Of a DNA stretch of 32,086 nt, positions 11,000 to 30,220 are shown in pieces (position 1 is the stretch's first letter; each line of letters opens with the position of its first letter). The DNA comes from Chitinophagales bacterium (GTDB lineage: Bacteria > Bacteroidota > Bacteroidia > Chitinophagales > JADIYW01). Location of the stretch: positions 1 through 32,086 of the forward strand of contig JADLAJ010000360.1 in the NCBI GenBank assembly GCA_020848255.1, given 5' to 3'. The position numbers and the translations under genes are program-made. Under the pieces are notes generated by a model that saw only the letters and a list, made by a program, of their open reading frames with translations, made no database searches and was not told where the DNA came from.

Positions 11000-12283
11000 A
11001 TGTATTCTTGTAAACCAATCAGAAAAATCCTCGCTTTAATAGTAATTACTTTATTTCTATCTCTGTCATCCACCTCCTTTGCAGCGGTTGCTGTACCGGA
11101 TGTTGCGGCTACAGACGCAGCAGGTGTGGAAAGAGCTAAGGCAGGTATGGCTTTGTATAAAGCGAACTGTACCTCTTGTCATGCAATTGACAGAAAAGTA
11201 GTTGGACCGGCACTGGCAGGTGTTTGGGACAGATGGGAAAGTGAAGCAAAACTTGTTGCCTGGGTGCAAAACTCTTCTAAACTGATAGCCAGCGGTGACG
11301 CATATGCTAATAAGGTTTTTAATGAGAACAACAAATCTGTAATGTCAGCATTTCCTCAGTTAACAGCTGAGCAGGTTATGGACATCCTGATTTACGTAAA
11401 AAATCCGGGAGTAGCAGAACCGGCAAAAGCAGCAACTTCAACTGATGCTGGAGCAACTGCTGGTGGTGCTGAAAATAAAGGTGCTTCTGCATGGTATATT
11501 TGGGCCTTGGTAGCATTTTTGGTAGTGCTGGCTTTATTGCTGTGGACAGTAACGTCTAAATTAGACAAAGCAGTTAGAGAAAAAGCAGGTGAGGTAGTGG
11601 AAGAAATTCCGTTGGCTAAAAAAGTATTCAGTAATAAAACATTTAAAGTATTAATGCTGATTGGTTCTATATTGTTGGTATTCAATATCTTCGGTGGAGC
11701 TATCGATTTAGGTCGGTCTCAGGGATACGCACCGGATCAACCGATTAAATTCTCTCACGCATTACACGTAGGTCAGAATAAGATTGAATGTCAGTATTGC
11801 CATACCGGTGTGGAGAAAAGTAAACACGCAAGTATTCCGGGTACTCAGATTTGTATGAACTGTCACAAATATGTGCAGCAAGGACCGAAATACGGTAAAG
11901 ATGAGATTGCAAAAATCTACGACTATGCAGGCTGGGATGTGGACAAGCAAAAATTCACGCAAGCTCCTAAGAATATCGAATGGGTGAAAATTCACAACTT
12001 ACCGGATCACGTATATTTCAATCACTCTCAGCATGTAAAGGTGGGTGGTGTTAAATGTCAGACTTGCCACGGTAAAGTGGAAGAGTACGAAGTGATGAAA
12101 CAATTCGCTCCTTTATCTATGGGATGGTGTATCAACTGTCACAGACAAACGGAAGTGAAATTTGCTGAAAATAAATATTATTCCGTATTCCAGAAATATC
12201 AGGACGAATTGAAAAAAGGCACTAAGTCTAAAGTAACAGTAGAAGATATTGGTGGTACAGAATGTCAAAAATGTCATTATTAA
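11000..12283 (+). CDS. actA: Alternative complex III subunit A: N-terminal monoheme cytochrome c domain plus five-heme domain
   Basis: Six CxxCH motifs (CTSCH, CQYCH, CMNCH, CQTCH, CINCH, CQKCH), TM between the domains, followed by actB. Confidence 0.93.
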   Translation: MYSCKPIRKILALIVITLFLSLSSTSFAAVAVPDVAATDAAGVERAKAGMALYKANCTSCHAIDRKVVGPALAGVWDRWESEAKLVAWVQNSSKLIASGDAYANKVFNENNKSVMSAFPQLTAEQVMDILIYVKNPGVAEPAKAATSTDAGATAGGAENKGASAWYIWALVAFLVVLALLLWTVTSKLDKAVREKAGEVVEEIPLAKKVFSNKTFKVLMLIGSILLVFNIFGGAIDLGRSQGYAPDQPIKFSHALHVGQNKIECQYCHTGVEKSKHASIPGTQICMNCHKYVQQGPKYGKDEIAKIYDYAGWDVDKQKFTQAPKNIEWVKIHNLPDHVYFNHSQHVKVGGVKCQTCHGKVEEYEVMKQFAPLSMGWCINCHRQTEVKFAENKYYSVFQKYQDELKKGTKSKVTVEDIGGTECQKCHY

Positions 12284-12313
12284 TATTCAAGAACTCAATT
12301 AACCTATATATAA

Positions 12314-15300
12314 ATGAGTAACAAAAAATATTGGACGAGCTTGGATGAGTTAAATGAAACTCCTCAATACAAAGAACAAGCTGCAAAGGAATTTAATTTT
12401 GAAATCGACGCAAACGATGCGGTAGATAATGGTGGAACAAATCGCCGTGATTTCCTGAAAGCAATGGGTTTCAGTGTATCTGTGGCTGCATTGGCTTCTG
12501 CATGTAAAATTCCTACACACAAAGCAATTCCTTACACACTGGATACCAGAAAAGCAGTTCCCGAAGTTACACCGGGAGTAGCTGATTATTTTGCTACTAC
12601 GTTTTACGATGGTAATGACTGTATTAATATTTTGGTAAAAACAAGAGAAGGTCGCCCAATTAAAATTGAAGGAAATACTGATTCTCCTTTTACATTAGGC
12701 GGAACAAACGCAAGAGCACAGGCTTCTGTATTGAGTTTGTATGATGTAACACGTTTGGCTACACCAACTATTAAGAATAAAAAGGCTGACTGGAAAACAG
12801 TAGATGCTGAAATTACTGCAAAACTGGATGCAATTGCAAAAAGTGGCGGTAAAATCGCATTAGTTACAGGTACTGTGGCTTCTGTGATTACCAAAAAAGC
12901 GATTGAAAAATTTGCAGCAAAATATCCAACCACTACTGTAGTTAGCTATGATGCGATTTCTAACTATGCAACAAGAAAAGCAAACCAGACAAGTATTGGT
13001 GCTGCAATCATCCCTTCTATTAATTATGATAAAGCAGATGTTATTGTTGGTTTTAATACAGACTTTTTAGGTACCGGAATTTCTTCCGTAGAAAATACAA
13101 AGAAATATATCGCAAACAGAGTACCTACAAAAGAAAATCCAAAAATGTCCCGTCACCACCAGTTTCAGTCTACCATGACGATTACAGGTGCAAGTGCGGA
13201 TTACAGATATCCTATTAATCCATCTGAAGAAAAGCAAGCATTAATCAATTTGTTAGCAGCAGTTGGCGGTTCAGTAAGTAGTGTTAAAAACCTTTCAGGA
13301 AAAGACGCTAATGATGGTATTGCTAAAGTGGCTAAAGAATTAATAGCTGCAAAAGGAAAATCTGTTGTGGTTTCCGGTACTAATGATGTAGAGATACAAT
13401 TATTGGTGAACGCGATCAACGGTACTTTGGGTAATTACGGCAGTGTAATTGATACTGCAAACAACTATAATTTAAAATCAGGAAACGATGAAGCATTGGC
13501 TGCATTGGCAAATGATTTAAAAGCAGGTGCATACAAAGGAATTATTTTAATAGGAGCAAATCCTGTTTACAATACACCTTACTCAGAAATATTTAAAGAA
13601 GCTATCAAAAAAGCGGAATTATCCGTTTCTACGGCAGACAGACCGGACGAATCAGCTCAGTTCGGACAGTATATTGCTCCGGATTCACATTACTTAGAGT
13701 CTTGGGATATTATTGCGCCTAAATCTGGTTTCTACGGATTCGTACAGCCTACTATTTCAGCGTTATTTGATACCCGTCAGGTTGCAGAATCCTTATTTAC
13801 ATGGGCAGGAGATACTACACCGATAGCACAAATCGTGCAAAATGAAGTAGCAGCAATCTCAGGTGGAAATTACCAGACAGCAATACAGGCAGGTTTCTTC
13901 GGTAGCGTTGCGGCTGGCAGCGGTGCAGGTGCCAATGTGGGTGCATCAGTAGCAGGTGTAAAAACAGAAACAGCAGCACCGAAAGGAATGGAAGTAATCT
14001 TCTACGAAAAAGTGGGTTTAGGTGACGGAACTTATGCAAATAACCCGTTCTTACAGGAATTACCGGATCCGGTAGCTAAAGTAACCTGGGATAACTATGT
14101 TACGATACCATATTCTTATGCTAAATCAAAAGGTATCGATCCTCAGCCATCTGAGAAAAATGTACCAATAGCAAAAGTAACTATCAACGGTAAATCTATT
14201 GAATTGCCGGTGGTTGTTCAGTTTGGACAGGCAGCAAATACTTTAGCCATTGCTTTAGGTTACGGTCGTGAGAAAGCGGGTAAAGCCGGTGACATGGTAG
14301 GTAAAAGTGTATATCCTTTTGTTAAATCAGCAAACGGTGCCGCTTCTTACTCTACAGATGGCGCAACGATTGAATTAACAGGTAAAACATACGAGCTGGG
14401 ATTAAACCAAACGTATCATACCCTGATGGAAGATAACAGTCTTCCAATGCGTTCTAAAAAATACAGAGGTGAAATCGTTAAAGAAACGACTTTAGCTGAA
14501 TACAAAAAGAACGAGCACGCAGGTAACGAAGACAGAGAGAAAATTAAAGAAGAATTCAGTCATTCATTATACGACGGCTATAAACCAAATGACTACAAAC
14601 AAGGTCATCACTGGGGAATGGTGGTTGATTTAAATGCATGTATCGGTTGCGGTTCATGTGTGGTTTCCTGCAGTATTGAAAATAACGTTCCTGTTGTTGG
14701 AAAACGCCAGGTATACCGTTCACAGGAAATGCACTGGATGCGTATCGACCGTTATTACAACGGTAATCCGGACAATCCGGATGTTTCTTTCCAGCCGATG
14801 ATGTGTCAGCATTGCAACAACGCACCATGCGAAAACGTTTGTCCGGTGAATGCAACGAACCACAGTTCGGAAGGTTTGAATCAAATGGCTTATAACAGAT
14901 GTATCGGTACAAGATATTGTGCGAATAACTGTCCTTATAAAGTACGTCGTTTCAACTGGTTAGATTATCAGGGAGCAGATAGCTTTGGTAAATTCAACGA
15001 CGGTAAACGTTCATTCACAGATACAGAAGCACAATCTTACATGTTCGAAGATTTAACCAGAATGGTATTGAATCCGGATGTAGTAACACGTTCCCGCGGG
15101 GTAATCGAAAAATGTTCTTTCTGTGTTCAACGAATTCAGGAAGGAAAATTAACTGCAAAAAAAGAAGGTCGTCCGTTGAAAGATGGAGATGTGAAATCAG
15201 CTTGTCAGACAGCTTGTCCTACAAATGCCATCACATTTGGTGACCAGAATAATAAAGAAAGCGTGGTAGCAAAAACTTTTGAAACCAGCGGAAGAAATTA

Positions 15301-15412
15301 CTATGTTCTGGAAGAACAACATTTCCTTTCTGCAGTTGGCTATCAGGTAAAAGTTAGAAATAAAGACGAAGAACCGGCACAATATTTCATAGATAAACCG
15401 TCGGAAGTTTAA
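12314..15412 (+). CDS. actB: Alternative complex III subunit B (molybdopterin-oxidoreductase-like plus ferredoxin-like Fe-S domain)
   Basis: TAT signal NRRDFLKAMGFSVSVAALASAC; C-terminal Fe-S cysteine clusters CIGCGSCVVSC, CQHCNNAPCENVCP, CIGTRYCANNCP, CSFC...CQTACP. Confidence 0.96.
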   Translation: MSNKKYWTSLDELNETPQYKEQAAKEFNFEIDANDAVDNGGTNRRDFLKAMGFSVSVAALASACKIPTHKAIPYTLDTRKAVPEVTPGVADYFATTFYDGNDCINILVKTREGRPIKIEGNTDSPFTLGGTNARAQASVLSLYDVTRLATPTIKNKKADWKTVDAEITAKLDAIAKSGGKIALVTGTVASVITKKAIEKFAAKYPTTTVVSYDAISNYATRKANQTSIGAAIIPSINYDKADVIVGFNTDFLGTGISSVENTKKYIANRVPTKENPKMSRHHQFQSTMTITGASADYRYPINPSEEKQALINLLAAVGGSVSSVKNLSGKDANDGIAKVAKELIAAKGKSVVVSGTNDVEIQLLVNAINGTLGNYGSVIDTANNYNLKSGNDEALAALANDLKAGAYKGIILIGANPVYNTPYSEIFKEAIKKAELSVSTADRPDESAQFGQYIAPDSHYLESWDIIAPKSGFYGFVQPTISALFDTRQVAESLFTWAGDTTPIAQIVQNEVAAISGGNYQTAIQAGFFGSVAAGSGAGANVGASVAGVKTETAAPKGMEVIFYEKVGLGDGTYANNPFLQELPDPVAKVTWDNYVTIPYSYAKSKGIDPQPSEKNVPIAKVTINGKSIELPVVVQFGQAANTLAIALGYGREKAGKAGDMVGKSVYPFVKSANGAASYSTDGATIELTGKTYELGLNQTYHTLMEDNSLPMRSKKYRGEIVKETTLAEYKKNEHAGNEDREKIKEEFSHSLYDGYKPNDYKQGHHWGMVVDLNACIGCGSCVVSCSIENNVPVVGKRQVYRSQEMHWMRIDRYYNGNPDNPDVSFQPMMCQHCNNAPCENVCPVNATNHSSEGLNQMAYNRCIGTRYCANNCPYKVRRFNWLDYQGADSFGKFNDGKRSFTDTEAQSYMFEDLTRMVLNPDVVTRSRGVIEKCSFCVQRIQEGKLTAKKEGRPLKDGDVKSACQTACPTNAITFGDQNNKESVVAKTFETSGRNYYVLEEQHFLSAVGYQVKVRNKDEEPAQYFIDKPSEV

Positions 15413-15442
15413 TAATTAATAAAAGTCGTAAAGTAAGATATA

Positions 15443-16882
15443 ATGGCAAGTCATTTTGAATCACCACTACGCGAACCGTTAATATTCGGTAATAAAACGT
15501 ATAAACAAATTACAAACGATATCGTTGGGCCAACTACCGGTAAAGTACAGCCTAAATGGTTGTTCTGGACTTTGGTATCTGCAGCTGTTGCGGGATTGTT
15601 TGTGTTTTGTATCACCTGGGAAGTTTGTTTTGGTATTGGTACCTGGGGTGCCAACAAAACGGTAGGTTGGGCTTGGGATATCACCAACTTCGTTTGGTGG
15701 ATCGGTATCGGTCACGCAGGAACGCTGATTTCAGCTATCTTATTATTATTCCGTCAGAAATGGCGTACAGGGGTTAACCGTGCAGCGGAAGCGATGACGA
15801 TTTTCGCGGTTGTCTGTGCAGGTCAGTTTCCTATTTTCCACATGGGACGTGTTTGGGATGCATTTTTCATCTTCCCTTATCCGAATACAAGAGGACCACT
15901 TTGGGTAAACTTTACCTCTCCCTTACTTTGGGACGTATTTGCGATTTCTACTTATTTTACCGTTTCTTTATTATTCTGGTATACAGGTTTAGTTCCGGAT
16001 TTCGGTACTATTCGTGACCAGTCTAAAACACCAGGCAGATGGAAATTCTACAATTTCTTAAGTTTCGGATGGGTAGGAAGTGCTAAACACTGGGAACGAT
16101 GGGAATCACTTTCATTAATTTTAGCAGGTTTATCAACTCCATTAGTATTATCCGTACATACGATAGTATCCTTTGACTTCGCAACTTCCGTTGTTCCTGG
16201 CTGGCATACCACCATCATGCCTCCATACTTCGTAGCGGGTGCGATTTTCTCAGGATTTGCGATGGTATTAACGTTAATGTTAGTGGCTCGTCACGTAATG
16301 AATTTACAGGATTACATCACACTGGCTCACATTGAGTCGATGAATAAAGTAATGTTGTTAACCGGTACTATGGTAGGTATAGCTTATTTAACAGAACTTT
16401 TCACAGCTTGGTATTCCGGAAATATGTATGAAAGTTATGCATTCGCCAACAGAGCATTTGGTCCTTATTGGTGGGCATACTGGAGTATGATGTTCTGTAA
16501 CTTAGTATCACCGCAGGTGTTCTGGTTCAGAAAATTAAGAAGAAATCTTTGGGTTACTTTTGCGATGTCTATTTTGATTAACATAGGTATGTGGTTCGAG
16601 CGTTTCGTGATTATCGTAATCTCTTTGCACAGAGACTATTTACCATCAAGCTGGGTTTACTATTCTCCAACATGGGTAGAAATAGGCATTTTCGTAGGAA
16701 CAATTGGATTATTTATGACCTTGTTCTTATTATTCTGCAGATTCTTCCCGGCAATTGCTATTGCAGAGGTGAAATCTATCCTGAAAGTATCAGGTAATCA
16801 GTACAGACAAGGACAATTAGATGAAGTAAAAGATCAGGAAGTATACAAAAATACATCAGTAGAAGCTGGAACCTGGGATTAA
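15443..16882 (+). CDS. actC: Alternative complex III subunit C (NrfD-like)
   Basis: Polytopic NrfD/PsrC-like sequence (NFVWWIGIGHAGTLISAILLLFRQKWRTGVNRAAEAMT), operon position. Confidence 0.96.
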   Translation: MASHFESPLREPLIFGNKTYKQITNDIVGPTTGKVQPKWLFWTLVSAAVAGLFVFCITWEVCFGIGTWGANKTVGWAWDITNFVWWIGIGHAGTLISAILLLFRQKWRTGVNRAAEAMTIFAVVCAGQFPIFHMGRVWDAFFIFPYPNTRGPLWVNFTSPLLWDVFAISTYFTVSLLFWYTGLVPDFGTIRDQSKTPGRWKFYNFLSFGWVGSAKHWERWESLSLILAGLSTPLVLSVHTIVSFDFATSVVPGWHTTIMPPYFVAGAIFSGFAMVLTLMLVARHVMNLQDYITLAHIESMNKVMLLTGTMVGIAYLTELFTAWYSGNMYESYAFANRAFGPYWWAYWSMMFCNLVSPQVFWFRKLRRNLWVTFAMSILINIGMWFERFVIIVISLHRDYLPSSWVYYSPTWVEIGIFVGTIGLFMTLFLLFCRFFPAIAIAEVKSILKVSGNQYRQGQLDEVKDQEVYKNTSVEAGTWD

Positions 16883-16909
16883 TTTTTAAAATTCATTATT
16901 AGAAATAAT

Positions 16910-17440
16910 ATGAGCGATACAAAAAAATATTTAGTAGGAATGTTCGACGACGACGATGTGTTATTACACGCCGTTAAGGATGTGCGAAATGCAGGTTATG
17001 AAATTACCGATGCATTTACACCATTTCCTGTGCATGGTTTGGAACATGCAATGGGTTTAGAACCCACTCGTATTCATACAGCAGGTTTCTTCTTTGGAGC
17101 AACAGGCTTAACCGTTGCATTAAGTATGATTACGTTTATCAATAAGTTTAACTATCCTACAGATTATGGTGGTAAACCAAATTTCGGATTACTGGCATAT
17201 GTTCCGATTACATTCGAACATACCGTTTTGTTTTCCGCAATAGGGATGACTGTTTCTTTCTATTATTTATGTAAACTTTGGCCGGGTAAAAAGCCGAAAA
17301 TCATAGATGAAAGAACAACAGATCATTTATTTGCATTAACATTTGAACTAGACAGTACTAAAGATGCTAACTATGTAAATGCAGTTTCTGAATTACTGAA
17401 AAAAGAAGGCGCTATCGAAGTTTATCAAAAAGAAGTATAA
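16910..17440 (+). CDS. actD: Alternative complex III subunit D (DUF3341)
   Basis: KYLVGMFDDDDVLLHAVKDVRNAGYEITDAFTPFPVHGLEHAMGL; operon position. Confidence 0.95.
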   Translation: MSDTKKYLVGMFDDDDVLLHAVKDVRNAGYEITDAFTPFPVHGLEHAMGLEPTRIHTAGFFFGATGLTVALSMITFINKFNYPTDYGGKPNFGLLAYVPITFEHTVLFSAIGMTVSFYYLCKLWPGKKPKIIDERTTDHLFALTFELDSTKDANYVNAVSELLKKEGAIEVYQKEV

Positions 17441-17444
17441 CATC

Positions 17445-18044
17445 ATGTTGAAACAATATCAAATCATATTTATCGTTTTAGTGCTTGGTCTTACATCTTG
17501 TATCCGAAGTTCTAAACAGCCGGGAAGACAATACATGCCCGATATGGCTGAAGCAGTTGCTTATGAGGCCGGTTCTCCAAACCCTATTTTTAAGGATGGA
17601 AAAACGAATCAACTGGCACCTGCAGGAAGCATGGCAAGAGGAAAGTATATCTATCCTTTATCGGATTCCGATTATGAGAAATCCGCATCAGTGATAACAG
17701 ATCCTTTTACTTTCACGAAAGATGAAATAGAAGGAGAGGGTAAAAATCTGTTCACTGTTAACTGCGCTATTTGCCATGGTGAAAAAGGAGATGGACAAGG
17801 GTATCTTGTTCAGATTAATAAATTCCCGCCACCACCGTCATATTTATCAGAACCATTATTGTCTCTGGCAGATGGTAAAAGATATCATACATTGATGTAT
17901 GGTAAAAATATGATGGGTTCTTACGCATCACAATTAAATCACAGAGAACGTTGGTTGGTATTAAGTTACGTGAAATCACTGCAGGCAGCAAGCAAACCTG
18001 CAGCAGTTTCATCTGAAAAAACTGACTCAACTAAAACTAAATAA
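17445..18044 (+). CDS. actE: Alternative complex III subunit E, monoheme cytochrome c lipoprotein
   Basis: Lipobox GLTSC; CAICHGEKGDGQG; YHTLMYGKNMMGSYASQL. Confidence 0.94.
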   Translation: MLKQYQIIFIVLVLGLTSCIRSSKQPGRQYMPDMAEAVAYEAGSPNPIFKDGKTNQLAPAGSMARGKYIYPLSDSDYEKSASVITDPFTFTKDEIEGEGKNLFTVNCAICHGEKGDGQGYLVQINKFPPPPSYLSEPLLSLADGKRYHTLMYGKNMMGSYASQLNHRERWLVLSYVKSLQAASKPAAVSSEKTDSTKTK

Positions 18045-18065
18045 TAATTTAAACAGATTCTCGCA

Positions 18066-19367
18066 ATGAATACATACGTTTTTGATTCGGGCACCAAAAA
18101 AAATATTTTTATAGCTTTCGGCATAGGAGTACTTTTACTTATACTGGGTGTTGTGTTTTTTGGAAATAGCGAAAGCCATAATAATCATGCAACTGCTACA
18201 CACGGACAGGTGGTAGAAGCTAAAGCTCCTGCTGTTGAACCAGCTGCAGAAGGACATGGTCATGCTGCACCTACTTTGAAAATGACGGTAATTGCAAATA
18301 TTTACAATATTTTCTATTTCGGATTTTATATTGCATTAGCTGCGTTGTTTTTTCTTGCTGCAACAAATATTGCATGGGGTGGCTGGCAGATTCAAATTCA
18401 AAAAATACCATTGGCTATGGCATCCACTATAGTTGTATTTTTAGTTTGTTTATTAGTGATGTTCTTGTTTTTTAATCATGATATTTTTCACTGGACACAC
18501 GAAGAATTGTACATTAAAGGAAGTAAAACTTTTGACGAAACGCTTAACACGAAACGCGATTTCTTAAATATGACGACATTTTGGTCATTTTATGTAATAA
18601 TAGCAGGTTCTTGTTTAGCATTAACATATAAATGGTGGAACACGCTGACAACAATGGATTCCAATCCTACAAGAAAACTATTTTCTACCAGCCGTGTTAT
18701 AGCTGCAACCACAATAGTTTTGATTTCATTCGTTATCAATACATTCGCAACCTGGTTATGGTCTATGTCTATTCAACCACATTGGTATAGTACTATGTTC
18801 ACATGGAACACAATGGCAAGTGCTGCCGTTACCATGTTATCCATTGTAATTCTGTTTATACATTACCTGAAAGGAAAAGGATATTTACCAAAAGTAAATG
18901 ACAACCATAAACATGACGTGGCTAAACTGATGTTTGCTATCAGTGTATTCTGGTGCTATACCTGGTTTGCTCAGTATATGTTAATCTGGTACGCAAATAT
19001 CCCGGAAGAAACAGAATATTTCCGCTTAAGAAGAAACGTAGACAACTATGGTATCTTATTTCACGGAGCATTCTTTTTCAATTTCGTATTACCGTTCTTT
19101 ATCTTAATGACCAGAAATTCTAAAAGAAGTAAAAATGTAACGATAGTTGCAGCTATTATCATAATTCTTGGACAATTTGCAGCATTCTTTTTAATGAATT
19201 GTCCTGCATTATTACCAAAAGGCGGATTTGGATTAATTAGTTTCGGATTGTTTTTGATGATTGGAAGTATATTTGTTTACCTCACTCTTGCAGTTTTAGC
19301 AAAAGTGAAAGACTTAGCGTCAACCACTCATCCATACGTAAATGAAAGTTATCATCATCATATTTAA
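18066..19367 (+). CDS. actF: Alternative complex III subunit F
   Basis: Polytopic, operon position after actE; WSMSIQPHWYSTMF and YANIPEETEYF typical of ActF. Confidence 0.95.
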   Translation: MNTYVFDSGTKKNIFIAFGIGVLLLILGVVFFGNSESHNNHATATHGQVVEAKAPAVEPAAEGHGHAAPTLKMTVIANIYNIFYFGFYIALAALFFLAATNIAWGGWQIQIQKIPLAMASTIVVFLVCLLVMFLFFNHDIFHWTHEELYIKGSKTFDETLNTKRDFLNMTTFWSFYVIIAGSCLALTYKWWNTLTTMDSNPTRKLFSTSRVIAATTIVLISFVINTFATWLWSMSIQPHWYSTMFTWNTMASAAVTMLSIVILFIHYLKGKGYLPKVNDNHKHDVAKLMFAISVFWCYTWFAQYMLIWYANIPEETEYFRLRRNVDNYGILFHGAFFFNFVLPFFILMTRNSKRSKNVTIVAAIIIILGQFAAFFLMNCPALLPKGGFGLISFGLFLMIGSIFVYLTLAVLAKVKDLASTTHPYVNESYHHHI

Positions 19368-19380
19368 AATTTAGTCAGAC

Positions 19381-20871
19381 ATGGCAATTATATTAGGCTT
19401 ATTAACGTTAGTGTTGTTGTACATCGTAATTGTGCAAATAAGCAAGGCATCAGATTTAATTAAATCCTTGCGTTCCGGTGATGAACACGAAGAATCATTT
19501 GGAAATGGTGCATTGTTTACCTCTTTTATTGGCTTTGCAGTACTTATTTACTCTATTGTAACTTGTTTTGTATATGCTCCAACGATGTTACCGAAACCTG
19601 CTTCCGAGCAAGGAGTTTGGATAAACGATTTAATGAATATCACAATTGTGTTAACAGGTGTCGTATTTATTATTACTCAGGTACTTTTATTCTGGTTTGT
19701 ATATAAATATCATTACAGAAAAGGCAGAAAAGCATATTTCTTTGCAGATAATAATAAACTAGAAGTAGCCTGGACAGTCGTTCCTGCTATCGTGCTCACT
19801 TTTTTAATTGGTTTCGGTATACAGAAATGGTTTAAAATATTTTCACCTGCCCCAAAAGATGCAGTTTTAATTGAAGCTACCGGTAAACAATATGCATGGT
19901 CAATACGTTATTCAGGTGCTGATCATACATTAGGAAAAAGAGACTTTTCCCTTGTGAATCCAGATAATGAATTGGGAATAAACTGGAATGATGCTGCAAG
20001 TCATGATGATTTCATGGCGGATGAAATAGTTTTACCGGTGAATAAACCGGTGTCAATAAATGTTGGTGCATTGGATGTTATACATAATTTTTGGTTGCCT
20101 CATTTCAGATTAATGATGTCGGCTGTTCCTGGTGTTCCAACACACCTTTGGTTTCGTCCGACTATAACCACTGAAGAAATGAAAAAGGAAACAAACAATC
20201 CTAACTTCGAATATGTTGTAGCTTGTAATAAACTATGTGGTTCCGGACACTATAATATGAAGAAAAAAGTAAGAGTAGTATCACAGGAAGAATATGAAAA
20301 ATGGTTCAGTGAACAAAAGTCTTATTATACAACTGTAGTTAAGCCGGCAATGGAAAGCGGTGCATTCAAAATGCCGGTTTCTGAAGTTGCAGAAAACACA
20401 GCAGCAGCTTCTGCTAATGGATTTTCCGGCAAACTTTCAACAGGCTTTGAATTAGTGGGTGCTGTGAATGGAGGCGTAGAAAATAAATTGGTTACTTTTA
20501 TTCAAAGTGATAAACAGGTTGCTAAAGATATATGGTTTTCTTTTGACAGATTGTTGTTCGAAACAGGTAAGTCAACATTGAAACCTTCATCGCAGGAACA
20601 GTTAAAAAATATTTCGGAAATAATGAAAGCATTTCCTGCTGTAGAAATTAAGTTAGGCGGATATACCGATAATGTTGGAGATCAGAAAGCTAATTTAAAA
20701 TTATCTGATAGCAGGGCAAAAGCAGTAATGGCAGAGTTGATTAAATTGGGTGTGGCTGCTAACAGAATAAAAGCGGAAGGTTATGGTGATCAGTTTCCTG
20801 TTGCTACAAATGAAACAGATGCCGGTCGTCAGCAAAACAGAAGAATAGATATTAGAGTAACTAAGAAATAA
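19381..20871 (+). CDS. coxB: Cytochrome c oxidase subunit II with C-terminal OmpA/MotB-like domain
   Basis: Two TMs and WTVVPAIVLTFLIGFG; CuA site CNKLCGSGHYNM; then, after a linker, WFSFDRLLFETGKSTLKPSSQEQLKNISEIMKAFPAVEIKLGGYTDNVGDQKANLKLSDSRAKAVMAELIKLGVAANRIKAEGYGDQFPVATNETDAGRQQNRRIDIRV. Confidence 0.96.
   Translation: MAIILGLLTLVLLYIVIVQISKASDLIKSLRSGDEHEESFGNGALFTSFIGFAVLIYSIVTCFVYAPTMLPKPASEQGVWINDLMNITIVLTGVVFIITQVLLFWFVYKYHYRKGRKAYFFADNNKLEVAWTVVPAIVLTFLIGFGIQKWFKIFSPAPKDAVLIEATGKQYAWSIRYSGADHTLGKRDFSLVNPDNELGINWNDAASHDDFMADEIVLPVNKPVSINVGALDVIHNFWLPHFRLMMSAVPGVPTHLWFRPTITTEEMKKETNNPNFEYVVACNKLCGSGHYNMKKKVRVVSQEEYEKWFSEQKSYYTTVVKPAMESGAFKMPVSEVAENTAAASANGFSGKLSTGFELVGAVNGGVENKLVTFIQSDKQVAKDIWFSFDRLLFETGKSTLKPSSQEQLKNISEIMKAFPAVEIKLGGYTDNVGDQKANLKLSDSRAKAVMAELIKLGVAANRIKAEGYGDQFPVATNETDAGRQQNRRIDIRVTKK
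20521..20868 (+). other. OmpA-like peptidoglycan-binding domain encoded within coxB (residues ~381-496)
   Basis: GYTDN...LSDSRA and QNRRIDIRV motifs; Asp430 and Arg445 are 15 residues apart, the spacing of the DAP-binding pair in OmpA-like domains. Confidence 0.93.
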
Positions 20872-20902
20872 TTAAATTTAAGTAGCCTTAAATTAACAAT
20901 AT

Positions 20903-22729
20903 ATGCAAACGACAACAGTACATGAAACGCATGCAGATGTTCACGTTCACGGTCCAGGACACGGTGGCGGTCATCATCACACGGAAACGTTTATTTCAAA
21001 ATATATTTTCAGCTTAGACCATAAAACTATCGGTAAGCAATTTCTGATAATGGGTATGGCATGGGCAATCATAGGCGGTTTCATGTCTGTATTGTTTCGT
21101 GTGCAGTTAGGTTGGCCTGATGAAACATTTCCTGTATTAGAAAGAATTTTTTCTACCTGGTTTACTGATGGAAAATTAAATCCTGAAGCATATTATTCAT
21201 TAATTACAATGCATGGTACCATCATGGTATTCTTCGTATTAACAGCGAGTTTGAGCGGTACTTTTGCAAATGTTTTAATTCCTTTACAAATTGGAGCAAG
21301 AGATATGGCGTCTCCTTTAATGAACGCGTTATCTTTCTGGTTCTTCTTTATTGCAGGTGTTGTAATGTTTGCTTCTTTATTTTTGCCAACTGGTGCTGCT
21401 TCTGCTGGATGGACAATTTACCCACCTTTAAGTGCACTACCACAAACTTCACCAGGTTCTGGTAACGGTATGACTTTCTGGTTGATTGCCATGGTATTAT
21501 TCGTTGCATCTACTTTGTTAGGTGGTTTAAATTATGTTTCTACTGTTTTAAATATGCGTACTAAAGGTATGACGATGTTCAGATTACCGCTGACGGTATG
21601 GGCATTGTTCTTTACAGCTATCATTGGTATATTGTCTTTCCCGGTATTGGTTTCTTGTGTGGTACTCTTAATTTTTGACAGAGGATTGGGAACAAGTTTC
21701 TATTTGTCAAATATTGTAATCGGTGGTAAAGCCTTACCTTATGCAGGTGGTTCACCTATTTTATTCCAGCATTTATTCTGGTTCTTAGGTCACCCTGAGG
21801 TATATATCATCATTTTACCTGCTATGGGTATGGTATCTGAAATTTTAGCAGTACACTCACGTAAACCTATTTTCGGATATAAAGCGATGATTTTTTCTAT
21901 CTTAGGTATCACCGTATTAGGTTTCATCGTTTGGGCACACCACATGTATCTTTCTGGTATGAATCCTTTCTTAGGTTCAGTATTTACATTATTTACACTG
22001 TTAATTGCGATACCATCAGCAGTTAAAGTATTTAACTGGCTAACTACATTGTGGAGAGGTAATATACGTATCACACCACCATCTATGTTTGCTATTGGTT
22101 TCGTGTCTATGTTTATTTCCGGTGGTTTGACAGGTATCTGGCTTGGAAATTCAACTATTGATATTCAATTACATGATACCTATTTTGTGGTTGCACACTT
22201 CCACATTGTAATGGGTATCGCTGCATTCTTTGGAATGTTTGCTGGTATTTATCATTGGTTCCCACGCATGTTTGGCAGAATGATGAATGAAACAATGGCT
22301 TATATTCACTTTGCTATCACATTTATTGGTGCATACCTTATTTTCTGGCCAATGCACTTTATAGGTTTGGCTGGTGTACCAAGAAGATATTACTCTTTTA
22401 ATGAAATAGAAGCGTTCTCACAATACGGTGACTTAAATAAATTAATCAGTGTTGCAACAATCATTGTTTTTTTAGGACAGTTTCTTTTCCTTGTAAACTT
22501 CTTCTGGAGCATGTATAGAGGCAGAAAATCTGTGCAAAATCCTTGGCAGGCAAATACATTAGAATGGACTTCACCTATCGAAGGTATTCATGGAAACTGG
22601 GATGGTGAACTTCCTACAGTACATAGATGGCCGTACGATTATAGTAGAGATCCAAATAGTGATATTGATTTCATTCCTCAAACGGTTCCATTAACAGAAG
22701 AAGAAAAAAAAGATAAAATTCATCATTAA
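20903..22729 (+). CDS. coxA: Cytochrome c oxidase subunit I
   Basis: MHGTIMVFFV, WFLGHPEVYIIILP, WAHHMYLSGM, HDTYFVVAHFHIVMG. His-rich N-terminus. Confidence 0.97.
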   Translation: MQTTTVHETHADVHVHGPGHGGGHHHTETFISKYIFSLDHKTIGKQFLIMGMAWAIIGGFMSVLFRVQLGWPDETFPVLERIFSTWFTDGKLNPEAYYSLITMHGTIMVFFVLTASLSGTFANVLIPLQIGARDMASPLMNALSFWFFFIAGVVMFASLFLPTGAASAGWTIYPPLSALPQTSPGSGNGMTFWLIAMVLFVASTLLGGLNYVSTVLNMRTKGMTMFRLPLTVWALFFTAIIGILSFPVLVSCVVLLIFDRGLGTSFYLSNIVIGGKALPYAGGSPILFQHLFWFLGHPEVYIIILPAMGMVSEILAVHSRKPIFGYKAMIFSILGITVLGFIVWAHHMYLSGMNPFLGSVFTLFTLLIAIPSAVKVFNWLTTLWRGNIRITPPSMFAIGFVSMFISGGLTGIWLGNSTIDIQLHDTYFVVAHFHIVMGIAAFFGMFAGIYHWFPRMFGRMMNETMAYIHFAITFIGAYLIFWPMHFIGLAGVPRRYYSFNEIEAFSQYGDLNKLISVATIIVFLGQFLFLVNFFWSMYRGRKSVQNPWQANTLEWTSPIEGIHGNWDGELPTVHRWPYDYSRDPNSDIDFIPQTVPLTEEEKKDKIHH

Positions 22730-22758
22730 TACAGAAACATTAAATAGCTTATTCTAAC

Positions 22759-23664
22759 GTGAAAACAGAAAGAATATATATTGACAGACCTTCATTCGGT
22801 AAAATACTTTCTTTAAAAATGAAAGACGTCATGGAATTGACTAAATTCCGTTTGTCTTTCCTTGTTGTGTTTTCTGCTGTAATGGCATACCTGGTTGCTA
22901 ATCCACTCTCTGTTGAATGGTTGAAAATCGCTTTACTTTCTTTAGGTGGTTTTTTAGTTACGGCATCTTCCAATACTATCAATCAGTTAATAGAGAAAGA
23001 TACTGATAAGCTAATGGATAGAACAAAAAACCGTCCATTGCCTTCCGGTAGAATGAAGCCAATCGAAGCTTATTTAATTGCAGGATGCACTGGTGTTTTA
23101 GGAATATTTATTCTGGGAGTGGTATTTAATCCAATCAGTGGATTATTAGGCGCATTAGCCCTGATTTCATATGCATTTATTTATACACCGTTCAAGAAAA
23201 TAAGCCCTGTTGCTGTATTTATTGGAGCAATACCAGGCTCCATGCCTTTATTGATTGGTTGGACAGCAGCAACCGGAACAATTGGTTTAGGTGGTGTAAT
23301 CTTATTTACCATTCAATTTTTTTGGCAAATTCCTCATTTCTGGTCTATTGCTTGGTTGTTGAATGATGACTATAAAAAAGCAGGTTATTATTTGCTGCCA
23401 TCTGCTGACGGGAAAAACAGAACAACAGCATTACAAAATATTCCTTATTTATTGTGTTTGATAGCAGTTAGTGTATTGCCATATGTATTTGGTTTTACAG
23501 GAAGAGTTTCGCTAGTGATTACTTTAATAGCTGGATTGTTTTTTTTAATAAACGGAATTCAATTAGCAACGGATATATCAGATAAAAGTGCAAGAAAACT
23601 GATGTTTGCATCTTTTATGTACATTCCGGTAGTATTTATTGCATTTGTTTTAGATAAAGTATAA
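22759..23664 (+). CDS. ctaB: Protoheme IX farnesyltransferase (heme O synthase)
   Basis: NTINQLIEKDTDKLMDRTKNRPLPSGRM, YTPFKKISPVAVFIGAIPGSMPLLIGW. Confidence 0.96.
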   Translation: MKTERIYIDRPSFGKILSLKMKDVMELTKFRLSFLVVFSAVMAYLVANPLSVEWLKIALLSLGGFLVTASSNTINQLIEKDTDKLMDRTKNRPLPSGRMKPIEAYLIAGCTGVLGIFILGVVFNPISGLLGALALISYAFIYTPFKKISPVAVFIGAIPGSMPLLIGWTAATGTIGLGGVILFTIQFFWQIPHFWSIAWLLNDDYKKAGYYLLPSADGKNRTTALQNIPYLLCLIAVSVLPYVFGFTGRVSLVITLIAGLFFLINGIQLATDISDKSARKLMFASFMYIPVVFIAFVLDKV

Positions 23665-23666
23665 AA

Positions 23667-24290
23667 TTGGCAGAGATAACGAAATATAAGATTAATAATC
23701 AGGGAGCACACCGCTTCACGATGTATCTGTTTATAGTGACAACGTCAATGATTTTTGCCGGTTTTACCAGTGCTTTCTTAGTTCGAAAAGGAGGAGGTGG
23801 TGCATGGACTCCATTTGATATTCCGGCAATTTTTAAAGTTTCAACTTTACTGATATTATTAAGTAGTGTTTTTTTACAAGCTGCACATATAGCTAATAAA
23901 AAACAACATAAACTAATGACTGCTGTTGGTTTGTTTTTTACGTTGGTATTAGGTTTGCTGTTCTGTTACTACCAGATACAAGGCTGGAAACAGTTAAATG
24001 ATGCCGGAGTTTATCTTTCCTTTAATCCAAATCCGGCAGGCCCTTATTTTTTAGTAATTACGTTTATACATGCACTACACGTGTCTGTTGCAATATTGTT
24101 TTTATTTATTGCATTTGTGCACTCGGTAATTTTACTGAGAAGATCAAACAGTACGGAAATATTAAACGAGATTGAAACAACAGAAAAAGGAATACTCAAT
24201 ATACGCACAGATTTACTGACCTTGTTTTGGCACTTCATGGGCATACTATGGGTTTATTTATATTTCTTTTTAACCTTGAATTTAAAGTAG
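23667..24290 (+). CDS. Cytochrome c oxidase subunit III (first copy)
   Basis: TTG start; FIHALHVSVAILFLF, LTLFWHFMGILWVYLYF. Confidence 0.9.
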   Translation: MAEITKYKINNQGAHRFTMYLFIVTTSMIFAGFTSAFLVRKGGGGAWTPFDIPAIFKVSTLLILLSSVFLQAAHIANKKQHKLMTAVGLFFTLVLGLLFCYYQIQGWKQLNDAGVYLSFNPNPAGPYFLVITFIHALHVSVAILFLFIAFVHSVILLRRSNSTEILNEIETTEKGILNIRTDLLTLFWHFMGILWVYLYFFLTLNLK

Positions 24291-24304
24291 AAAAAAATAC
24301 TGTA

Positions 24305-25048
24305 ATGGCAGAAATTTTAGAAATACAAGAAGAGCATCACACAAATTTATTGCCTACGCCTGACAATGGCGAAGGAGGTGAAAAAACAGCAATGAATATC
24401 AGTTATGGAAAAACCATGATGTGGTATTTCCTGTTATCAGATGCATTTACATTTTCAGCATTCTTGATTGCATATGCATCCATAAGATTAGCACAGGCAT
24501 GGTGGCCAAATCCAAATTTGGTTTTTAAATCCTTTCCGGGTTTAGGTCATACAAATGCTCCATTGGCATTTGTGAGTGTGATGACATTTATTCTGATTCT
24601 CAGTTCTGTTGCAGTTGTTCGTGCAGTACAGGAAGGTCACAGAATGAATCAGAAAGGAGTTATGCTTTGGATGATTGGTGGTATTGTCGGAGGTGCTATG
24701 TTCTTAGGTTGTCAGGCTTGGGAGTGGAATCACTTGATTGCAGAAGGTTTACGTCCTTTCTATAATCCATTTGGTCCTGATGCAAATGGGGTTACTCATT
24801 TGGTAGAGGAGCATATGGCTGTATCACCTGGACCAATTGCATTTGGTGCATTGTTTTTTGGTATTACCGGATTTCACGGATTCCACGTATTTACGGGGGT
24901 TTGTATTAATATCTGGGCATTCTTTGCAACTGCAAACGGTACATTCCAAAGAAGAGGTCATTATGAAATGATTGAAAAAGTTGGTTTATACTGGCACTTT
25001 GTAGATTTGGTATGGGTGTTTGTATTCTTAGCATTCTATTTAATGTAA
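24305..25048 (+). CDS. Cytochrome c oxidase subunit III (second copy)
   Basis: GITGFHGFHVFTGVCINIW, YWHFVDLVWVFVFLAFYL. ATG 24305 preferred over the listed 24227. Confidence 0.92.
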   Translation: MAEILEIQEEHHTNLLPTPDNGEGGEKTAMNISYGKTMMWYFLLSDAFTFSAFLIAYASIRLAQAWWPNPNLVFKSFPGLGHTNAPLAFVSVMTFILILSSVAVVRAVQEGHRMNQKGVMLWMIGGIVGGAMFLGCQAWEWNHLIAEGLRPFYNPFGPDANGVTHLVEEHMAVSPGPIAFGALFFGITGFHGFHVFTGVCINIWAFFATANGTFQRRGHYEMIEKVGLYWHFVDLVWVFVFLAFYLM

Positions 25049-25079
25049 TCGTTTTATAAAAAAAAATAAAAAGAGAGAT

Positions 25080-25406
25080 ATGTCTAGTCATTTATCAGAA
25101 GAACAATATCAGTCAAGTGTAAAAGCAGTCTGGAGAGCAACAGCTATTCTTAGTATTGTTACCGTGGTTGAAGTTGCAGTTGCATTAATATTAGGACCAC
25201 ATTTACCAAAATTAGTAATGAATACATTCTATGTACTGGCAAGTTTAGCAAAAGCTTTCTTTATCGTAGGTGAGTTTATGCACTTAAAATACGAGAAGCG
25301 TGCCTTTATGCTTTCTCTTGGAGTTCCATTAGTTTTCTTAGTATGGGCAATTATTGCATTTGCTACAGAAGGTCATTACTGGAATATCTTGAACCATCCA
25401 AAATAA
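25080..25406 (+). CDS. Cytochrome c oxidase subunit IV family protein
   Basis: Small three-TM protein with KAFFIVGEFMHLKYEKR, right after subunit III. Confidence 0.88.
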   Translation: MSSHLSEEQYQSSVKAVWRATAILSIVTVVEVAVALILGPHLPKLVMNTFYVLASLAKAFFIVGEFMHLKYEKRAFMLSLGVPLVFLVWAIIAFATEGHYWNILNHPK

Positions 25407-25412
25407 TCTTTA

Positions 25413-26153
25413 TTGAAAAATAATAAAAGAGTCGGGTTTATTGCAGCTGTCGTAGTTGTAGCAATATTTCCTGTCGTGTTTTTTCTGGTATTTAACTATA
25501 AGAATAAACACAGACCTACATTGGAAACAGATAAGTGTTTACCTATTTATGGTCCCAAGCAGCCATTTAAGTCAAAAGATTACAGAGATAGGGATATCAT
25601 TGATACTGCATATTTCAAAGTACCGCCATTTTTATTTTTAGACCAGAATGGAGATACTGTAACAGAGGCTATCATGAACGGAAAAGTGACTGTAGTTGAT
25701 TTCTTCTTTACTACCTGCAAAAGTATCTGTATCGATATGACCAGTAATCTGCATCTTGTTCAGGATAAATTTGTAACAGATAAAGACGTATTAATACTTT
25801 CTCATACAGTAGATCCGGAAACAGATTCCGTAAAACAATTATTCAATTATTCTGTTGAAAAGGATGTTAATTCCAGAATGTGGAGATTGCTGACCGGAGA
25901 CAAGAAAGAACTGTATAAACAAGCTCGTAATGGGTATTTTATTACAGCGATGCAAGGTGATGGTGGTCCGACGGATTTTATTCATGATCAGAAATTTGTA
26001 CTAATTGATAAGGAAAGACGAATCAGAGGTTACTATGACGGTACTGATAAAATATCAGTAGATCAGATGATTAAAGATATTCAGATGTTACTGGTAAGTT
26101 ATATCGTTCCTATGAAAAAGAACGACCCTAAGTACAAGAAAGAGAAAAAATAA
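25413..26153 (+). CDS. SCO1/SenC-family copper chaperone
   Basis: VTVVDFFFTTCKSICIDMTSNL (CxxxC), LSHTVDPETDS, FIHDQKFVLIDKERRIRGYYDGT. Confidence 0.93.
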   Translation: MKNNKRVGFIAAVVVVAIFPVVFFLVFNYKNKHRPTLETDKCLPIYGPKQPFKSKDYRDRDIIDTAYFKVPPFLFLDQNGDTVTEAIMNGKVTVVDFFFTTCKSICIDMTSNLHLVQDKFVTDKDVLILSHTVDPETDSVKQLFNYSVEKDVNSRMWRLLTGDKKELYKQARNGYFITAMQGDGGPTDFIHDQKFVLIDKERRIRGYYDGTDKISVDQMIKDIQMLLVSYIVPMKKNDPKYKKEKK

Positions 26154-27071: not shown

Positions 27072-28325
27072 ATGTCTCCGTCATTTCATATCAAAAAACC
27101 GGCGCAGGATTCTCTTAACGGCTCTATTCAGTTAAATGGTTCTAAAAGTATCAGTAATCGTGTGTTAATTATTGATGCGTTGTGTAATAATCAAATTGCT
27201 ATGGAAAATCTATCCAATGCGGATGATACGGTTTTTCTTAAAAATATACTTCAGTCAAAAGAGAGCGTTTTAGATGCCGGAGCAGGTGGAACCACCTTTC
27301 GTTTTCTTACTGCATTTTTAGCTACACAGGAAGGAAGGGAAGTGGTGTTGACCGGCAGCGATCGAATGCAGCTTCGTCCCATAAAAATCTTGGTAGATGC
27401 CTTAGTGCAATTAGGTGCAGATATCACCTACGAAAAAAATCAGGGCTTCCCGCCACTAAGAATCAGAGGACGAAAATTGAAAGGCGGGAAAATAAGTTTG
27501 CCTGCTGATACCTCTTCACAATTCATTACCGCTTTGTTGTTAATCGCACCAACGCTGGAAGAAGGTCTTGAGCTTGAATTAACAGGCACTATTGTTTCTG
27601 TTCCTTATATTAAGATGACGTTGAAAATGATGGAGTATTTTGGAATTAATACCAAATTTGAAGGAAACAATATAAATGTAGCATCCGGTAATTATACCCC
27701 CAAACCGTTCTATATAGAAGGAGACTGGAGCGCTGCGTCTTACTTTTATGCTATTGCCGTTTTAGCAAAAAACGCATCTATAGAATTAAAAGGATTAACC
27801 AATCAGCAAATACAGGGAGACGCTGTTATTGCTTTTATTTCAAATAGTTTTGGAGTGGAAACAACATGGAAAGAAAATGCTGTTGAAATTCGTAAAGTAA
27901 GCAAGCCGGATTTTAGTGTATTTAATTTTGATTTTCTGGAGTGCCCTGATTTGGCACAGACTGTTGTGGCGTTTTGTGCCGCCTTGAAGATAGAACTGCA
28001 TTGCAAAGGTTTGCAAACTTTGCGAATCAAAGAAACTGACCGGATTGCAGCATTAGATACAGAATTACAAAAATTAGGCTTAGCTTCTTTAGTGGAGCTG
28101 GATAGCAACAACTGGAAATTAATTTCAAACAATCTCACGACTCACGACTCACGACTTACGACTATAAAAACATACGATGATCACCGCATGGCCATGGCGT
28201 TTGCACCCTTATCTTTAAAATTGAATGAGTTGATTATTGAAGATGCCAATGTAGTTTCAAAATCATATCCATTATTCTGGAAAGACCTCGAAAGGCTGGG
28301 CTTTGAAATTACAACAGCGATTTAA
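27072..28325 (+). CDS. aroA: 3-phosphoshikimate 1-carboxyvinyltransferase (EPSP synthase)
   Basis: GSKSISNRVLIIDAL, LRIKETDRIAALDTEL, KTYDDHRMAMAFAPL. ATG 27072 preferred. Confidence 0.96.
   Translation: MSPSFHIKKPAQDSLNGSIQLNGSKSISNRVLIIDALCNNQIAMENLSNADDTVFLKNILQSKESVLDAGAGGTTFRFLTAFLATQEGREVVLTGSDRMQLRPIKILVDALVQLGADITYEKNQGFPPLRIRGRKLKGGKISLPADTSSQFITALLLIAPTLEEGLELELTGTIVSVPYIKMTLKMMEYFGINTKFEGNNINVASGNYTPKPFYIEGDWSAASYFYAIAVLAKNASIELKGLTNQQIQGDAVIAFISNSFGVETTWKENAVEIRKVSKPDFSVFNFDFLECPDLAQTVVAFCAALKIELHCKGLQTLRIKETDRIAALDTELQKLGLASLVELDSNNWKLISNNLTTHDSRLTTIKTYDDHRMAMAFAPLSLKLNELIIEDANVVSKSYPLFWKDLERLGFEITTAI
28134..28161 (+). repeat. Tandem heptanucleotide (ctcacga)x4 inside aroA
   Basis: ctcacga ctcacga ctcacga cttacga; only the last unit differs, by one base. 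Confidence 0.9.
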
Positions 28326-29063: not shown

Positions 29064-30101
29064 CTATATCACTTCTTGTGGCTTGTAATTGGGCTGTGTG
29101 GAGTCATCATAGTAAAACTGCTGTGCCCACATTCTGTATTGTGTCACAGGGCCATCCCCTTTAGCTAAAATAGGCGGGTCGATATAAATTTTGTTCTCCC
29201 AGATTTTAAAATCCATACTTACGTCATGGCAATACCCTTTGTAAGCGCCGTTCAGTAGGATTTTATGAACTAATTTTTTTGGCAATAAATTCAATAATGG
29301 AGTGATTTTTTTAAAATCAGACATCTTTTTTACACTTACTCCAATGCGCAGTTTAAGTTTTCCGATATCAGTAGGAGTGGGTAATACAAAGTGACGGGTC
29401 TGCATACCAAGTTCCGGAATTTCTGTGTTAACAAATGAATAGCCCAGGCCATGTACATGCACATTAAACTCGGTTCGGATGTTTCTTTTCTTACCCACAA
29501 AATCAGCTATACGGTGCATAGCATATTTTGCATATAGATAATAGTCGTGTGTTTCCATATCGTGTAAGGTTTCAACACCAGTGTATCCATGTACAATGCC
29601 GAAATGCCCTACATCCACACTGTTTTCTGAAGTTTCCTGTGGATGTGAATTGAAATTGTATTCTGCAAAACGCACTTCAGTCCACTCACTCCAGTCTTCT
29701 TGCGGAATAAACCATGACGGTGCATTATTTTTCTCATCAAACCAGATTAAAATCAAATCATTTTTTTCATCAGCATAGTATGTAGGCAATTTTAATTTTG
29801 AAGATGGTTTTGAGTCGTAACCGGTTTTAGTACAGTCTCCTTTGGTGTCAAAACAAAAATGATGAAAAGGACATTTTATGTTTTCGCCTTCTACTTTTCC
29901 ACCGTATCCGAAATGACCGCCCATATGAGGACAGTAGGGTTCTGTAATTGCAAGTTTACCGGATTCGGTTCTGAATAATAATATGTCTTTTCCTGCAAAT
30001 CTTCTGGTAATGATTTCACCATTCTTCAGTTCATTGGAATGTGCCACAACATACCAGCCATTAGGAAATGGTTTTAATGGAATTCTTTTGTAAGACGCCA
30101 T
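29064..30101 (-). CDS. Rieske [2Fe-2S] non-heme iron oxygenase (KshA/DAF-36-like)
   Basis: CPHMGGHFGYGGKVEGENIKCPFHHFCFD Rieske ligands; SENSVDVGHFGIVHGY mononuclear iron motif. Start MASYKRIPLK preferred. Confidence 0.88.
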   Translation of the reverse strand: MASYKRIPLKPFPNGWYVVAHSNELKNGEIITRRFAGKDILLFRTESGKLAITEPYCPHMGGHFGYGGKVEGENIKCPFHHFCFDTKGDCTKTGYDSKPSSKLKLPTYYADEKNDLILIWFDEKNNAPSWFIPQEDWSEWTEVRFAEYNFNSHPQETSENSVDVGHFGIVHGYTGVETLHDMETHDYYLYAKYAMHRIADFVGKKRNIRTEFNVHVHGLGYSFVNTEIPELGMQTRHFVLPTPTDIGKLKLRIGVSVKKMSDFKKITPLLNLLPKKLVHKILLNGAYKGYCHDVSMDFKIWENKIYIDPPILAKGDGPVTQYRMWAQQFYYDDSTQPNYKPQEVI

Positions 30102-30220
30102 AGCATATGGTTTAACGCAATTTAAAATAGCTTTCTGTTGCAAAAATAATTGAAAAAATTAACAATCAGTATGTCCTCTTGTATAACAAAATTGATAACA
30201 AATACTTAACTGAACCTTTT

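Follow-up and report, generated by a model that had tools for sequence, protein, structure and literature searches.

How does the gene for a core enzyme come to carry, in frame, a tandem array of seven-base units, and does such an array do anything there? The question is raised by aroA (27072–28325, plus strand) in a window, that is the whole stretch of DNA analysed, of 32,086 nucleotides from a member of the Chitinophagales. The gene has an ATG start and 417 codons and is intact; its assignment as EPSP synthase is based on the open reading frame, on Pfam (EPSP_synthase, E 2.3e-82), on PDB homologues, on a match to the EPSP synthase fold and on the invariant residues, all of which are present. 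A period-7 tract is found at 28134–28163 on the plus strand (TRF score 53, 4.3 copies), where it forms codons 355–364 and encodes LTTHDSRLTT between an N and an I, just N-terminal of KTYDDHRMAM. Directly 3′ of it lies the conserved segment IKTYDDHRMA (28164–28193, plus strand) with the invariant D370, H371 and R372. The original prediction had four CTCACGA units at 28134–28161: the heptamer array is real, but three perfect units are followed by the variant CTTACGA and by a final CT, which makes 30 bp and not 28. The position in frame within aroA and before KTYDDHRMAM is confirmed by the intact reading frame and the Pfam match, and the arithmetic is also correct, as one 7-bp unit gained or lost would shift the frame of aroA. 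Since a 14-mer of the array occurs twice in the window and in none of 100 dinucleotide shuffles (0 occurrences), the array is not a product of chance.

Elsewhere in the window, positions 1425–2926 hold an Rhs-like fragment ending in an AHH nuclease domain (Pfam AHH, E 4.8e-14) and then an Imm11-type immunity gene (E 1e-10), which by sequence are likely to be a polymorphic toxin/immunity pair. What appears to be a cluster for alternative complex III and cytochrome c oxidase, including a SCO1/SenC assembly factor, extends over 11000–26153, its first and last genes assigned with Pfam and the others read from open reading frames. Near aroA, on the minus strand (29064–30143), there is a Rieske oxygenase with a 3-ketosteroid 9-alpha-hydroxylase C-terminal domain (KshA_C, E 1e-31).

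The array occupies a variable loop slot, which in an alignment with relatives runs from W-K-L to T-Y-D-D-H-R (28113–28187, plus strand) and comprises 25 residues here versus 24–25 in 11 relatives (congeners G001–G007 and family members). Therefore there is no net 10-residue insertion in AroA, and the original suggestion of an insertion in this loop is not supported by the alignment of AroA homologues. The array itself is absent from all 11 relatives, where the best 30-nt match has 10–13 mismatches, as for unrelated sequence, and on these grounds we reject an ancestral array that decayed in the relatives. Judging from the alignment, the array appears to have taken the place of former loop sequence with the net length unchanged. 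The companion suggestion, a repeat tolerated in a loop of a core enzyme, fares better. Residues 355–364 sit in a highly variable loop of the AroA alignment, and in an AlphaFold model (28 homologues) with a mean pLDDT of 93.1 they form a coil after the strand 347–352 and before a helix starting at residue 371, with the lowest-confidence block of the model (68) at residues 351–360. As modelled, the array would fill a harmless surface loop, and because it brings no net change in length, AroA with the array is predicted to work normally.

This genome (G000) has at least 50 dispersed copies of such a tract, the aroA array among them, with the consensus (CTYAYNA)4CT. The genome is a draft (3.13 Mb in 381 contigs, 86.6% complete), and the counts come from pattern searches and from sampled contigs totalling about 553 kb, some of them selected for the arrays they bear. 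In the 553 kb there are 36 tracts versus 0 for the reversed control pattern. The genome-wide search for other arrays found many: the consensus has 43 matches with at most one mismatch (5 for the control) and 138 with at most three (22 for the control), while the 14-mer with at most two mismatches has 63 versus 7. When 51 distinct copies were aligned with their flanks, information content was high at positions 0–29 and near background on both sides, the sole flank signal being a preference for A at −1. The tract is not palindromic. An origin from phage was considered and rejected, as no exact 30-mer was found in viral contigs. With degenerate 7-bp units in tandem, typically about four per array, dispersed and enriched over chance, the copies are dispersed heptanucleotide arrays of the STRR-like kind; CTYAYNA is, however, not the heptamer of a described family, and the string ACTCACGACTCACGA was not found in the literature searched. 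Other heptamer types are also seen in open frames of this genome: GTCGACC (L154, 291–329), ACAGTCG (L179, 19859–19889) and AACGATT (L184, 15512–15541), in genes which, reading their motifs, we take to be purD-like, nuclease-like and glycosyltransferase-like, respectively. Copies of the CTYAYNA family are often arranged as divergent pairs 20–60 bp apart, minus then plus (e.g. L193, 2571–2668), an arrangement that resembles two divergent genes with one leader array each.

Non-coding copies are often found in gene leaders, mostly in sense orientation, and their placement there is strikingly precise. There are 22 sense copies whose end is followed by an ATG no more than 12 nt away, and in 13 of them the gap is exactly 5 nt (P ~1e-9 under a uniform 0–12 null); in the congener G002 the mode of this spacing is about 4. 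Such tight spacing suggests a function of the leader copies, of which a purely neutral account falls short, and it suggests that these copies may matter for, or be constrained by, translation start. Comparison with congeners, which covers the leaders located by anchors (all but those of yihY and acs), shows that tracts in the leaders of a MoxR-type gene and a glycosyltransferase are common to more than one species. The asparaginase leader is 36 nt long in G000 versus 14 in G005 and 10 in G002, so insertion does occur outside genes. The aminotransferase leader has a CTYAYNA array in G000 and G002 and an AAATCTG-type array in G003.

Is the tract then an RNA-level element, putatively bound by a regulator that acts on translation or mRNA stability, in leaders and some coding regions? 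Besides the exact spacing and the predominance of the sense orientation, its four phased CT.A..A units would suit such a role, and TAACTGA repeats of Beggiatoaceae, with a similar bias towards start codons, have had such a role proposed (PMC4679880). However, copy number is patchy, from 0 to 10 copies with at most one mismatch in six congeners (with G002 copy-rich), and most orthologous leaders in congeners lack this tract. Moreover, the genes downstream share no common theme, the coding copies lie mid-gene, and a different heptamer can occupy the same slot. We therefore regard a regulatory element of this kind as unlikely, albeit the strongest of the alternatives.

The occupation of one slot by different heptamers is not restricted to leaders. 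Other heptamer arrays are present in 6 of 45 homologous congener loops, the comparison covering the loops located by anchors (all but two of pabB), whereas about 0.2–0.3 would be expected in loops of this total length, an estimate made at the G000 rate for segments of that score, while the density in G002 may be higher. Five of the six come from G002. Examples are CATTCAA and TCACAGA in its thiE loop, CCACAGT and ACCATCG in its pabB loop and ATTACGA in its PLP enzyme; the thiE loop of G004 has an AAATCTG/AAATCAT array. Sister species fill some slots with unrelated heptamer arrays of about four units, so the type of heptamer in a given slot turns over.

A short, fixed-size and dispersed sequence could also be a mobile element moved by an encoded enzyme, either a transposase of the REP/RAYT type or a reverse transcriptase templated by the repeat. 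Y1/RAYT-like transposase domains are indeed found in all eight genomes of the genus, but these include the array-poor ones; the tract lacks the palindrome and has no conserved flanks beyond its 30 bp, and there is no array within 1.5 kb of the Y1 genes read (two for G000 and one for G002), so we reject spread by REP/RAYT. The single array of G001 (L384, 1113–1142) is about 0.4 kb from a Y1/RAYT-like match; this can be counted in favour of a mobile element, but the proximity is probably a coincidence. As for a reverse transcriptase, the RVT_1 domain is absent from the array-rich genomes G000 (87% complete) and G002 (100% complete), and G007, the one genome of the genus in which it is present, has no array, so that RT-templated spread (DGR or DRT-like) is rejected as well. 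Movement by an encoded enzyme is hence quite improbable. Taken together, the absence of RVT_1 from array-rich genomes and the pattern of Y1 genes would favour short templated overwriting or conversion, plus slippage, as the way in which copies arise, rather than a transposase or a reverse transcriptase.

The coding copies of this genome lie in aroA, pheT, nadD, thiE, an E2 acyltransferase, a pabB-like chorismate enzyme, a PLP enzyme, a GHMP-type kinase (two copies), an acyl-CoA dehydrogenase/SCP2 fusion and probably the tail of dnaX; the kinase and dnaX, for which Pfam gives no match, are presumably what their motifs indicate. The coding copies occupy loops or interdomain linkers, those in pheT, E2 and the pabB-like gene lying in gaps between Pfam domains, and the internal tracts of the family fit the 30-bp form in frame. 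Where loops could be measured, their lengths fall in the range seen in congeners or near it, for example 42 residues versus 42–44 in pheT and 38 versus 37–39 at kinase site 2, and none has 10 residues more. Simple loop insertion is thereby rejected (aroA, pheT, nadD, kinase site 2, PLP enzyme and SCP2), and the coding copies, as a group, add no net length. One could still imagine selection at the protein level, with the LTTHDSRLTT peptide itself being useful as a flexible or binding loop, especially as 8 of the 10 mid-gene sense coding copies share one codon phase. However, nadD and the PLP enzyme have their copies in other phases, and in E2 the copy runs antisense, although all of these are in loops or linkers; unrelated peptides are found at the same loops in congeners; and the same tract dominates non-coding leaders. 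This makes selection for the peptide very improbable.

What remains is the size of the tracts. Four units are present in 40 of the 51 aligned copies and five units in 8, with tracts of 2–3 units under-counted here, as the alignment was picked with a 30-bp pattern. A scan for period 7 free of this bias (553 kb) gave 26 segments, of several heptamer types and all 23–39 bp long, versus 0 in shuffles, and other periods gave 0–9 segments; since part of this DNA was fetched for its arrays, the densities are upper estimates, while the length result is independent of that choice. The dispersed copies are therefore near-fixed in size. The limit of about 30 bp is not absolute, given that five- and six-unit tracts are more frequent in G002 (13 of 33). 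In more distant genomes (e.g. G053, G065 and G075) the CTCACCA or CTCACTA arrays are long and give overlapping matches, so the limit is a trait of this genus and not of heptamers generally. One site is shared across the genus: at kinase site 1 the tract is found in five species, always 30 nt long and in one codon phase, with 0, 0, 3, 3 and 7 mismatches to the consensus, which means that unit number was stable there while the sequence drifted.

These results leave the least room of all for the second half of the original prediction, a contingency locus. Such a locus would work by slipped-strand addition or removal of 7-bp units, throwing aroA out of frame and so turning the synthesis of aromatic amino acids on or off. 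Four near-identical units of a length that is not a multiple of three do lie within the gene, but they are not all identical, the instability in unit number that was implied is not borne out either among copies in this genome (none longer than 39 bp in the unbiased scan) or among five species at the kinase site, internal coding tracts keep the in-frame 30-bp form, the AroA loop is as long as in relatives with no array, and aroA encodes a core enzyme and not a surface or variable protein.

We consider it the probable explanation as a whole that a dispersed, length-limited heptamer repeat of the genus overwrote a tolerant loop of aroA. Copies have spread to dozens of places and would persist where harm is small, namely in leaders, surface loops and interdomain linkers, with selection acting as a filter that leaves tracts at such positions. 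In this scenario the coding copies would be neutral, while leader copies may be tolerated or weakly selected as unstructured translation leaders. A bolder formulation would be that the genus carries an active process which repeatedly writes four-unit tracts of about 30 nt, made of interchangeable heptamers, into permissive slots, either in leaders 4–5 nt ahead of the start codon or in protein loops and linkers; in sister species different types would overwrite one and the same slot, with genes keeping their net length. We put this forward tentatively, as something that is rather doubtful as yet.

How does the family compare with known systems? Palindromic elements of Rickettsia also lie in frame inside housekeeping genes, in surface regions, but they are longer palindromic insertions which lengthen the protein, in contrast to the 30-bp, non-palindromic aroA tract with no net added length. 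Phase-variable simple-sequence contingency loci similarly have units that are not multiples of three within coding sequence; here, however, the units are degenerate, the gene encodes a core enzyme and there is no sign of variation in unit number. The closest likeness is to two families of heptamer repeats. The GGGAATC repeats of Xanthomonas are dispersed degenerate 7-bp units with mostly four units per array, found as single arrays and inverted pairs, mainly intergenic (7–11% intragenic) and nearer to the upstream gene; they reach 26 units, and related species have them largely at the same positions (Rehm et al., 2015; PMC4692102). The tracts described here share the dispersal, the degenerate heptamers, the usual four units and the single and inverted arrangement. 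Unlike the G-rich GGGAATC, though, the CTYAYNA unit is rich in C, T and A, so no quadruplex is expected, the tracts stop at about 30–39 bp, and arrays are found 5 nt before ATG and in frame in core enzymes. TAACTGA direct repeats, known from Beggiatoaceae, Cyanobacteria and some Bacteroidetes, occur as 2–6 units close upstream of start codons with no functional theme and few within ORFs; stops occur in their forward orientation, and the copies that do fall in coding sequence are mainly peripheral or belong to hypothetical proteins (MacGregor, 2015; PMC4679880). The arrays here are likewise close upstream of start codons with some inside ORFs, but the sense strand of CTYAYNA is open and copies lie mid-gene in core enzymes. 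The CTYAYNA family is thus set apart from both by its unit sequence, its narrow size, its fixed leader spacing and its filling of core-enzyme loops with no net change in length.

Many bacterial genomes hold more heptamer arrays than expected, and no mechanism for them is settled. One practical consequence is that a heptamer array inside a gene should not be called a phase switch before relatives have been checked. With array size nearly fixed at four units, a spacing of 5 nt to ATG and heptamer types that replace each other in the same protein loops, this lineage offers many natural replicates for asking how the tracts are copied and why the unit has seven bases, and it could show whether translation responds to leader copies in bacteria in which Shine-Dalgarno sequences are seldom used.
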